Virus record (IMG/VR): IMGVR_UViG_3300025769_000632
Coordinates: 1-28,193 of that record
Strand: one strand, 5' to 3'
DNA: 28,193 nt
From: a virus
Below the pieces are notes generated by a model. That model was not told the origin of the DNA and ran no database searches. It saw only the letters and a program-made list of their open reading frames with translations. Each line of letters begins with the position of its first letter. The stretch's first letter is position 1. The translations under genes and the position numbers were made by a program. Shown one piece after another: positions 8,808-12,967 of the stretch.

Positions 8808-10499
8808 ATGCCAAATTGGAAAAAGGTAATCACTTCAGGAAGTGATGCAACGTTAAACTCTTTAAACCTATCCAGCGTAGTAAACGCAGCAACTGATACT
8901 GATAAATTCTTAGTATTAGATTCTGCGGGAAATGTTGATTTTAGAACCGGAGACAATGTAAAATCAGACATTGGGTTAAGTAATGTTGAAAATACAGCAT
9001 TATCAAATTGGGCGGGTTCTACTAACATTACAACATTAGGTACAATTACAACTGGTACTTGGCAAGGTTCAGCTATTTCAACCACATACATTGCAAATAC
9101 AAGTGGTACAAATACAGGCGATGAACCAGATGCATCGACTACGGTAAAGGGTATTGTAGAATTAGCAACAACTGCTGAAACTACTACTGGTACTGATACG
9201 ACAAGGGCGGTAACTCCAAACGGATTAGAAAACGGCTTTAATGGTTCTACCAATATTACAACTCTTGGAACGATTGCAACTGGTGTTTGGCAAGGTAGTG
9301 AAATTTCAACCACATACATTGCAAATACAAGTGGTACAAACACAGGTGACGAACCAGATGCTACTACATCTACAAAGGGTATTGTAGAATTAGCAACAAC
9401 TGCTGAAACAACAACTGGTACTGATACGACAAGAGCGGTAACACCAGATGGATTGAAAGATGGTTATCAAGGTTCTACTAATGTAACAACATTAGGTACA
9501 ATTTCTACAGGTGAGTGGGTCGCAACAGATATTGGATTAGCACATGGTGGTACTGGTGCATCTCTTGCAGACCCTAATGATGATAGAATTCTTTTTTGGG
9601 ATGATTCGGTCGGTTCTGTCGCTTGGTTAGATATTGGTACGGGGCTATCTATAACAAACCAAACCATATCTGCAACAGGAGGTGGTGGTAGTGGATACGA
9701 ATGGTTTGATGGTACAACATATGCATCGGCATCAGTAGACGTTAGGGTAACGGGTTCGATAGAAGTTTACAAATCTGGTTCAACTGGTGATGATATTGTA
9801 ATGGCCATTGATGGGGCACAAGGTAGATTGTTTGAAGTAACAGACCAGCTATCGGGTTCTTTATTTTCGGTAAATGATATATCAGGTATTCCAATTTTTG
9901 AAGTATTCTCAGATGATACTGTTAATATTGGTACATTTAATGATGAAGCAATTGTAGTAGAAGGTAATGAAGCAACTATTGGGTTGGCAAATGGAACAGT
10001 TGGCGCGCCATCGCTTAATTTCACCTCAGATGGAAACACAGGATTTTATAGAAGTACTACGGATACAATTGCGATTGCAATTAATGGGCAGAGTAAATTT
10101 AATATAAACAGCAGCCGAGCGTATGTTGCAGGGGCATTGGGTGTGGGTACTACAACCCCCACAACCACAGGTTTAATCAGAGCAACCAATGATGTGGTTG
10201 CATTCTATTCTTCAGATGAAAGATTAAAAGATAACATTAAAAAAATTGAAAATCCAATAGATAAATTAGAAAATATAAATGGTGTAGAATTTGATTGGAT
10301 ACCAATGGAAGGTATACATGAAAACGAAGGGCATGATGTTGGTGTAATCGCACAAGAAGTTGAAAAAGTAATTCCTGAAATAGTTGAAACCAGAGATAAT
10401 GGGTATAAGGCTGTTAAATATGAAAAGATAGTTCCACTATTAATTGAATCAATCAAAGAGTTGAAAGATGAGATTGAGAAACTTAAAGGGAGATTGTAA
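8808..10499 (+). CDS. Tail fibre with C-terminal S74 intramolecular chaperone
   Basis: 563 residues. The N-terminus MPNWKKVITSGSDATLNSLN matches the attachment-like start of the 5142 fibre. Residues about 70-237 are a 76-residue tandem repeat containing KGIVELATTAETTTGTDTTRAVTP, cited here as VELATTAETTTGTD and RAVTP[ND]GL, a familiar tail-fibre repeat. Then come a GGGGSGYEWFDGTTY linker and a segment with PSLNFTSDGNTGFYRS near 400, typical just ahead of S74 domains. Residue 469 onward (SDERLKDNI, DVGVIAQEVEKVIPEIV, KYEKIVPLLIESIKEL) is a peptidase S74 chaperone: in that family the Ser of SD.RLK.NI is the new N-terminus after self-cleavage, and the domain assists trimer folding. It ends with a coiled coil. 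Self-cleavage before Ser469 is inferred. Confidence 0.9.
   Translation: MPNWKKVITSGSDATLNSLNLSSVVNAATDTDKFLVLDSAGNVDFRTGDNVKSDIGLSNVENTALSNWAGSTNITTLGTITTGTWQGSAISTTYIANTSGTNTGDEPDASTTVKGIVELATTAETTTGTDTTRAVTPNGLENGFNGSTNITTLGTIATGVWQGSEISTTYIANTSGTNTGDEPDATTSTKGIVELATTAETTTGTDTTRAVTPDGLKDGYQGSTNVTTLGTISTGEWVATDIGLAHGGTGASLADPNDDRILFWDDSVGSVAWLDIGTGLSITNQTISATGGGGSGYEWFDGTTYASASVDVRVTGSIEVYKSGSTGDDIVMAIDGAQGRLFEVTDQLSGSLFSVNDISGIPIFEVFSDDTVNIGTFNDEAIVVEGNEATIGLANGTVGAPSLNFTSDGNTGFYRSTTDTIAIAINGQSKFNINSSRAYVAGALGVGTTTPTTTGLIRATNDVVAFYSSDERLKDNIKKIENPIDKLENINGVEFDWIPMEGIHENEGHDVGVIAQEVEKVIPEIVETRDNGYKAVKYEKIVPLLIESIKELKDEIEKLKGRL
9015..9518 (+). repeat. 228-bp tandem repeat in fibre gene, 2.2 units
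   Basis: Units begin at 9015, 9243 and 9471 (GGTTCTAC), a period of exactly 228 bases or 76 codons. The first two units are full length and highly similar; the third matches only for about 48 bases (GSTNVTTLGTISTGEW) before diverging. Confidence 0.88.
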
Positions 10500-11188
10500 T
10501 GCCATTACAAAGCTCAGGAACAATAACTGTGGATGATATTTACACAGAATTAGGTAATTCTAATATAGGGTTATCCGGAGGTGTAGCTCTAAGTGCATTA
10601 GAAACTGGTGCTTTTGGGAGTATTAATACAAATTCTACAAATAAACCCGATGGTTCAACACCATACGCCATGTCTGAGTGGTATGGGTACGACCATAATG
10701 CAACAGGTGCTACTTTAACAGCTTATAACAGTAGCAACTTCGGCCAATTAAGTGCATTTAACGCGTGTAGTGATAAAAGTAGTGTTACATATTACCACGA
10801 TGGCGCCCTTTCCGACCCTGCTGTGGGTGATACGTTATATTCGGATTCTGCTGGAACCAATTCATTGGCGGCTGGTTATTACCGGCTGACAACACCAGGT
10901 ACGTGGGTTCTTACTAATAGTAGTGGCACAGTCACATCGGCTGGTAGTTGCCGTTCTGAACGAAGATTAAAGAAAAACATTGAATATATCGGAATATCAC
11001 CAATGGGAATTCCAATATATCATTTTGAGTATAAAAACTCAGAACACGCTCCAAATGGTAAGGGTAGATATGTTGGTACTATGGTAGATGAGTTACAAAA
11101 ATTAGGGTTTTTGGATGTACTATTTACTAAAGATGGTGATGTGTGGGTAGATTACAATAAATTAGATATAGATTGTAAATTAGTATAA
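10499..11188 (+). CDS. Fibre-tip-like protein with short S74-type C-terminal domain
   Basis: 229 residues; ATG shares the last A of the previous stop (TAATG), implying translational coupling. The N-terminus MPLQSSGTITVDDIYTELG, followed by PYAMSEWYGYDHN near 58, is a module seen in many marine phage fibre proteins (P.SG.I...DI..E.G...P..LSE.YG). Residues about 80-152 (ACSDKSSVTYYHDG, GDTLYSDSAGTNSLAAGYYRL, SSGTVTSAGSC) form a small Cys-bracketed domain. Residue 153 onward (SERRLKKNI, GIPIYHFEYK, GRYVGTMVDELQKLG) is a compact S74-like chaperone. The canonical SD is SE here, so self-cleavage is uncertain. Probably a small trimeric fibre or tip working with the 563-aa fibre. Confidence 0.78.
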   Translation: MPLQSSGTITVDDIYTELGNSNIGLSGGVALSALETGAFGSINTNSTNKPDGSTPYAMSEWYGYDHNATGATLTAYNSSNFGQLSAFNACSDKSSVTYYHDGALSDPAVGDTLYSDSAGTNSLAAGYYRLTTPGTWVLTNSSGTVTSAGSCRSERRLKKNIEYIGISPMGIPIYHFEYKNSEHAPNGKGRYVGTMVDELQKLGFLDVLFTKDGDVWVDYNKLDIDCKLV

Positions 11189-11767
11189 ATGGGCCTTTTT
11201 GAAAAATATTTAGAAGGTAATGTATCATATGATGAACATTCCTTAATAGCAGAGGGTATTGAATGCTGTCCAATAATGTCGGATGATGAAGATGAATTGA
11301 TGTATGAAAGTGCTAAAATTCTATGTTCAAATGGTGGTTCTGTATTAAACGTTGGCTTTGGTATGGGTATAATTGATTCATATATTAGAGAACATAACCC
11401 AACTGAACATTGTATTATAGAAGTCCACCCACAGGTATCTATTAAGGCGCTAGAAATGGGATTCAACCCCATTCAGGGTGCTTGGGAGGAGATTATTCCA
11501 CAATTCATTAAAGATGGTAAGAAATTTGATAGTATCTATTTTGATACATTTCCATTTGATTATGAGAATTGGCCACAATGGGCAAAATTCTCGGAAATTG
11601 TACCTAAAATTTTAAAACCAAACGGTATTTACTCTTACTTTAATGAAATTTCATCATATGTTGAGAAATGTGAAGAAGTAGTAGATTCCTTTGGGTGGGA
11701 AAAGCATATAAAAGTAATTCCATTTGAGAGAGGTGATTATAATCTGATTTGGTACATAAACAAATGA
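11189..11767 (+). CDS. SAM-dependent methyltransferase, GAMT/RMT2-like
   Basis: 192 residues, starting at the base after the previous stop. Class I methyltransferase features: motif I SVLNVGFGMGIID at about 51-63, an acidic post-I strand CIIEVHP at 75-81, FDSIYFDTFPFDYENW at 113-128, and ILKPNGIYSYFNE at 141-153. The VGFGMGI form of motif I, with II[EN].HP and the YFDTF strand, is what guanidinoacetate and RMT2-type arginine methyltransferases use; the preceding PIMSDDEDELMYESAKILC matches their N-terminal segment. These relatives methylate guanidino or arginine nitrogens. The target here is unknown; being tied to the fibre genes, it may modify an arginine of a virion or host surface protein. 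Length is close to the catalytic core only. Confidence 0.82.
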   Translation: MGLFEKYLEGNVSYDEHSLIAEGIECCPIMSDDEDELMYESAKILCSNGGSVLNVGFGMGIIDSYIREHNPTEHCIIEVHPQVSIKALEMGFNPIQGAWEEIIPQFIKDGKKFDSIYFDTFPFDYENWPQWAKFSEIVPKILKPNGIYSYFNEISSYVEKCEEVVDSFGWEKHIKVIPFERGDYNLIWYINK

Positions 11768-11782
11768 TTCTTTAGTTATCTC

Positions 11783-11792
11783 CATATTTATA
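11783..11792 (+). promoter_or_regulatory. Putative late promoter element CATATTTATA
   Basis: Exact copy of the recurrent decamer in the 45-base gap, 20 bases before ATG 11813 and upstream of the neck gene block. No TTTG box about 20 bases upstream. Confidence 0.55.
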
Positions 11793-11812: not shown

Positions 11813-12967
11813 ATGGCGGTAAATATTCCAATATGGCCGGGTTCATCATCGTTTTCAGAAGGAAGTACTCCATTTGGGTATTATGATAGTGATGTAGAGT
11901 TCACATCATCTGCAGATAAAACTGCAGGGTGGTGCGCTAAACGATTGGGGTATCCTATTGTCGATATTGAACTACAGGATATTAATTTTTATGCGTGTTT
12001 TGAGGAAGCAGTTACTGAGTACTCATCACAAGTAAACCAATTCAATATTAGAGAAAATCTATTAAACCTTAGAGGTAGTTCGACGGGTTCAAACTTATCA
12101 CAAACACAACTAAACGCAAACTTAGGTGGATTAATTTCATTATCTAAAGATTATGGAACTGAAGCGGGTAGTGGTGGTAGAGTAACATACTATACGGGTT
12201 CATTTGAAGTAAATACAACTCAACAAGTTTATGATTTAACAGATGCATCAAATGTAACACTTGAAGTTGGTACTCCTGGTGTTGATAAGATTGAGATTAA
12301 AAAGATGTTACACAATGCACCTCCTGCTATGGTAAGATACTTTGACCCATTTATTGGTACTGGTTTAGGTTCACAACAAATGATGGATACTTTCGGCTGG
12401 GGTAACTACTCACCAGGGGTATCGTTTATGATGCAACCACTTTATGATGACCTTTTAAGATTACAAGCAATCGAATTCAATGATATGGTTCGTAAATCTC
12501 AATATGGATTTGATATCCAAAACAATAGAGTAAGATTATTTCCAGTTCCTGAGCATGCGTATACTGTACACTTCCATTACATTTTAGAATCTGATAGAAA
12601 TAATCCAATAATATCAAATTCGGTAGTATCTGATTACTCAAATGCTAGATTTGATAGAATTCAGTATTCAAATATCAATCATGTGGGTAAGCGTTGGATT
12701 GAAAAATATACATTAGCATTGGCGAAAGAGATGTTGGGTGCTGTTAGAGCTAAGTTCTCATCAATTCCAATTCCAAATTCAGAAGTAACTTTGGATGGTG
12801 CTGATTTGAGAAGTGAAGCAGCTACTGAAAAGGAAATCCTAATCTCAGAATTGAGAGAAAACTTAGAAGCAACCTCTCGTAAAGCATTATTACAAGCACA
12901 ACAAGAAGAATCTGAAGCAATGGAACAAACATTGAACAGAGTTCCTCGTGCAATTTATATAGGATAA
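11813..12967 (+). CDS. Neck protein, T4 gp13-like
   Basis: 384 residues (T4 gp13 is 309). The N-terminal half has the neck-protein pattern of a structured helix near residue 40 (AGWCAKRLGYPIVDIELQD, then FEEAVTEYSSQVNQFNIRENL), seen in gp13-type head-completion proteins. The middle carries VRYFDPFIGTG and a long aromatic segment, and the C-terminal third holds GKRWIEKYTLALAKEMLGA, AKFSSIPIPNSEVTLDG and a final charged helix. In T4, gp13 and gp14 seal the head and make the site where the tail docks. The following two genes (gp14-like and gp15-like) keep T4 order, which supports the assignment. Strong GGAGAG ahead of the ATG. The family call is moderate; virion neck context is strong. Confidence 0.7.
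   Translation: MAVNIPIWPGSSSFSEGSTPFGYYDSDVEFTSSADKTAGWCAKRLGYPIVDIELQDINFYACFEEAVTEYSSQVNQFNIRENLLNLRGSSTGSNLSQTQLNANLGGLISLSKDYGTEAGSGGRVTYYTGSFEVNTTQQVYDLTDASNVTLEVGTPGVDKIEIKKMLHNAPPAMVRYFDPFIGTGLGSQQMMDTFGWGNYSPGVSFMMQPLYDDLLRLQAIEFNDMVRKSQYGFDIQNNRVRLFPVPEHAYTVHFHYILESDRNNPIISNSVVSDYSNARFDRIQYSNINHVGKRWIEKYTLALAKEMLGAVRAKFSSIPIPNSEVTLDGADLRSEAATEKEILISELRENLEATSRKALLQAQQEESEAMEQTLNRVPRAIYIG

Follow-up and report, generated by a model that had tools for sequence, protein, structure and literature searches.

An uncultured marine phage, recorded in IMG/VR, carries, directly after its tail-fibre genes, a gene for what is very probably a guanidino N-methyltransferase of the GAMT/RMT2 type. 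Tentatively, and at somewhat less than an even chance, we favour the explanation that this enzyme is expressed late and methylates an arginine of the fibre tip, with residue R152 of the tip as the leading candidate site. The window, by which we mean the whole stretch of DNA analysed, is an IMG/VR record of 28,193 bases, and the ORF of the predicted SAM-dependent enzyme (192 aa, ATG start) occupies exactly positions 11189-11767 of its + strand.

The methyltransferase gene and its family

An earlier note on this DNA had placed the start of the gene immediately downstream of the stop codon of an S74-type tip gene, and had picked out in it the motifs VGFGMGI, IIEVHP and YFDTF. The ORF coordinates agree, the tip ORF at 10499-11188 ending in TAA and the methyltransferase ORF beginning at the very next base, and all three motifs are present in the translation (protein positions 55-61, 76-81 and 117-121, respectively). 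The arrangement of fibre, tip and enzyme recurs in 22 IMG/VR loci where the flanks allow it to be seen, and pairwise dN/dS of the methyltransferase gene was about 0.07-0.45; the arrangement is therefore more than chance, and the gene is under purifying selection.

When the protein was compared with PDB sequences by phmmer, GAMT was the sole convincing match (E 3.5e-15), and alignment of the phage family to GAMT with hhalign gave a probability of 99.8% (E 1.8e-28). The AF2 model (pLDDT 88.5) has a class I methyltransferase fold nearest to that of GAMT, which ranked first in Foldseek (TMq 0.82) and gave a structural Z of 21.5 (186 residues, rmsd 2.4), the next family reaching 16.0. By sequence alignment, E45 and D134 of GAMT, its two guanidino-binding acids, correspond to E34 (codon 11288-11290, +) and D119 (codon 11543-11545, +) of the phage enzyme, and these are conserved in 76 of 76 rows of an alignment composed of phage members, two GAMTs and one protein from a Bdellovibrio MAG. 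It is because of the sequence match, the structure match and these conserved residues that we assign the ORF product to the GAMT/RMT2 type, as the earlier note had done from its motifs. A DNA or RNA methyltransferase was considered and rejected, Pfam and PHROG giving no match, NCBIfam weak ones only, and GAMT coming first by structure. Classical PRMT (types I-III) gave no Pfam match at E 0.1 and was not among the 50 structural matches listed, an absence that is weak evidence.

GAMT converts guanidinoacetate to creatine by methylation, and is thus a small-molecule enzyme. The earlier note had counted a small-molecule methyltransferase as closest structural match against its reading, and GAMT is indeed closest; nevertheless, being the sole member of the superfamily matched in the PDB, it is compatible with either a small molecule or a protein as substrate. 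Yeast Rmt2, by comparison, methylates the delta nitrogen of an arginine in ribosomal protein L12 and has an additional N-terminal region, and we presume that the GFGMGIID, E-x-HP and YFDT-type motifs of the phage enzyme are closer to Rmt2 than to GAMT. With GAMT (PDB 1xcj, 3orh), its best match by both sequence and structure, the phage enzyme shares the E45/D134 equivalents and the VGFGM and FDxIxxDT motifs, but identity in the structural alignment is only about 27%, GAMT is longer (about 235 aa), the NDG of GAMT is replaced by HPQ, and the phage enzyme is encoded within a phage fibre unit. The top viral structural match, UniProt A0A8D9CBY1 from an uncultured marine phage (195 aa, 26% identity), is called a putative guanidinoacetate methyltransferase, a name that is annotation only.

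The fibre unit and the distribution of the enzyme

Upstream of the enzyme lie the genes for a tail fibre (8808-10499, +; 563 aa, with an S74 domain at its end by Pfam, E 6e-18, and matches to PHROG tail/fibre families) and for the fibre tip (10499-11188, +), a 229-aa protein in which a tip domain with two conserved cysteines is followed, by Pfam and PHROG, by a divergent S74 self-cleaving chaperone domain. The Pfam Peptidase_S74 match of the tip falls below the curated cut-off (E 0.0026, 18.5 bits against 22), and the PHROG S74-type match has an E of 1e-7; the Ser-x4-Lys catalytic dyad is present as SERRLK, one of the forms (SERRLK, SDRRLK or SERRYK) found in S74-bearing tips. Downstream, a neck or head-tail adaptor protein (11813-12967, +; 384 aa, phrog_211) forms the conserved 3' boundary of the slot, and beyond it are matches to tail sheath stabiliser, sheath and tube, the nearest named sheaths being those of a Microcystis phage (60%) and of Flavobacterium phages (53%).

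A promoter-like motif, CCATATTTATA (11782-11792, +), precedes the neck gene. Matches to it with at most one mismatch numbered 7 against 3.8 expected, so a promoter role is suggestive only, and so is the resulting placement of the methyltransferase gene at the end of the fibre transcription unit. The sequence CATATTTATA was seen in intergenic gaps before genes (window positions 895, 6959, 11782, 14321 and 17780) and is perhaps a late promoter, its count being modestly above chance.

The order fibre, tip, enzyme, neck held in all members of the clade that were found, where the flanks allow. Among 81 neck loci, the window included, the enzyme is present in 22 and absent from 45, and 14 could not be scored; locus L092 was excluded from this set, its match being another, longer protein. 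On the neck tree, presence of the enzyme requires 9 changes, at least 4 of them on supported branches. Two loci, L083 without and L084 with the enzyme, have identical neck proteins, and the methyltransferase ORF is cleanly absent from one and present in the other, with DNA identity of 99.5% after the ORF and 93% before it; from this pair, the gene is gained or lost as a unit. The slot between tip and neck in relatives holds LamG genes, nothing, or the methyltransferase. At one locus a fibre tip ending in CPL is followed by a class I enzyme of another kind (L262:2723-3262; 179 aa), spermidine-synthase-like by eye. At another (L003:4803-5865) the neck gene is broken into ORFs of 146 and 214 aa that overlap, through either a frameshift or an error of assembly. 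No isolated phage carrying the gene was found, only the metagenomic LR745206, nor was any plasmid; the sole cellular relative found, a weak one, is a distant GAMT-like protein on a Bdellovibrio MAG contig (L106:3000-3716).

At least 555 relatives were matched in IMG/VR, and genomic context was seen for the best 80 of them. A second clade, at about 30% identity (L109-L115, L165, L169, L178, L184-L189 and LR745206), adjoins fibre-like proteins and mostly also a CBM96-like protein, in other gene orders. A large third branch (L140-L191, for example L157:5890-6555) stands directly after the gp44 clamp loader, and some members of the superfamily have neighbours other than fibre genes or gp44. In a quick tree the first clade formed one group (98), as did the second at low support (44), and linkage to gp44 needed two changes. 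The earlier note had raised the question of whether homologues are always beside fibre genes. They are in the enzyme's own clade and in the second clade, but not in the gp44-linked branch, and fibre linkage therefore marks two clades rather than the whole superfamily; the target of the gp44-linked members probably differs from that of the fibre-linked ones. A more distant member, at L135, follows an adhesin that ends in ..CGR without S74, a further instance of the enzyme beside a terminal arginine, and there a glycosyltransferase-like protein (by eye; 774 aa, L135:2985-5309) comes after the methyltransferase. The GRG arginine of the CBM96-like neighbour was considered as the substrate in the second clade and rejected, as this invariant residue is also present at loci that lack the enzyme (L274, L276), in a comparison of few loci for which one protein alone served to sample the neighbour.

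It is reasonable to consider that the substrate is either a small molecule, for example a free guanidino metabolite, or a protein of the host, such as one of its surface or translation proteins, and that late expression is the only reason why the gene lies in the fibre unit. That the closest solved structure is a small-molecule enzyme is consistent with this, as are the relatives beside the clamp loader and away from fibres, which imply that members of the superfamily need not act on fibres. On the other hand, the strict place by fibre tips in one clade and by fibres in a second argues against it, as does the co-occurrence of the enzyme with a terminal arginine described below, and we regard such a target as unlikely, though it is the best of the alternatives.

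The predicted C-terminal arginine of the fibre tip

In S74 domains, cleavage takes place ahead of the serine of the Ser-x4-Lys dyad (PMC3742443). Applied to the tips, this rule predicts a mature end of the form ..C(x)nR, and in the window the predicted C-terminal residue after S74 self-cleavage would be R152 (R152|S153; codon 10952-10954, +). Mature ends were set by the S74 motif or by the end of the protein, an earlier last-Cys rule having misread some tips.

With S74 self-cleavage assumed, a terminal arginine was present in 20 of 20 enzyme-bearing and 12 of 34 enzyme-lacking tips, from 54 loci of the neck set. Tips with S74 showed no contrast (17/17 with the enzyme, 5/5 without), so the contrast comes from tips without S74 (3/3 against 7/29); and since all S74-bearing tips of the neck set end in arginine, much of the association is with S74. 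A wider, non-redundant set, with one entry per distinct tip end, gave 22 of 22 with the enzyme against 7 of 57 without (Fisher 8e-14, uncorrected for relatedness), and for its tips without S74 the counts were 3/3, all from one clade, against 3/53. The locus with the spermidine-synthase-like protein was scored as enzyme-lacking by eye, on its want of GAMT-type motifs (..VLIAGLGFG..), a judgement made after its CPL ending had been seen. On the neck tree there are 4 supported independent pairs, of which the arginine tracks the enzyme in about two and runs against it in none, which is not significant; shared ancestry may thus underlie the association, the independent events being too few. The idea of a terminal arginine arose from the alignment of the first tips, and counts that include these tips are therefore not an independent test, while the loci fetched afterwards provide a partly independent one only.

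Arginine columns were scanned in the tip, the C-terminal region of the fibre and the neck. R152 was the sole tip column with at least 90% arginine in enzyme-bearing tips (100%, against 37% in those without). These scans also bear on the proposal that the methylated arginine lies in a different virion protein of the fibre unit, namely the 563-aa fibre, the LamG proteins or the neck. Enzyme and fibre do share one unit, and methylated arginines are reported in structural proteins of Cellulophaga phages, a tail fibre among them (PMC13288928); however, the C-terminal region of the fibre has just one invariant arginine, which belongs to the S74 motif and is as frequent without the enzyme as with it, and at no neck column did the arginine frequency differ by more than 0.4, and so we judge this proposal improbable.

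Equally improbable is a cargo gene functionally unrelated to the fibre in a permissive tip-neck slot, for which the varied slot content, the different class I enzyme after one tip and the clean gain or loss can be cited, but against which stand the second clade beside fibres in other gene orders, the purifying selection and the terminal-arginine pattern.

Proposed methylation of the fibre tip and its meaning

Returning to methylation of the fibre tip, the enzyme's gene would probably come last in the fibre transcription unit and be expressed late, and the enzyme's likeliest substrate would be an arginine of the tip encoded by the preceding gene. We put a substrate somewhere in the tip at about an even chance; that it is the terminal arginine is more doubtful. 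On this proposal the S74 domain would cut itself off, R152 would become the C-terminal residue of the tip, and the enzyme would methylate it. At the adhesin's end the methyl group would alter how charge is distributed, as well as hydrogen bonding, and this may in turn change receptor binding or stability. Such a maturation module, in which self-cleavage bares a C-terminal arginine and a dedicated GAMT/RMT2-type enzyme methylates it to give a modified receptor-binding end, is, taken as a whole, a rather unlikely possibility. The earlier note had suggested modification of fibres or of host surface molecules. Gene position and the terminal-arginine pattern are what favour fibres as the target, and the suggestion does not extend to the family as a whole.

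A search of the open-access literature yielded no account of a fibre-linked methyltransferase of arginine type encoded by a phage. In phages of Cellulophaga baltica, lysine and arginine methylation was reported in 2026 on structural proteins, including a tail fibre, both in infected cells and in free virions, and according to the authors a methyltransferase is not known to be encoded by any of these phages (PMC13288928). They differ in this from the virus described here, in which a methyltransferase is encoded alongside the fibre genes. The natural occurrence of relatives with and without the enzyme makes methylation of the tip directly testable, and, if true, it would mean that phage adhesins receive a chemical finishing step, adding a layer with a possible influence on how hosts are recognised.
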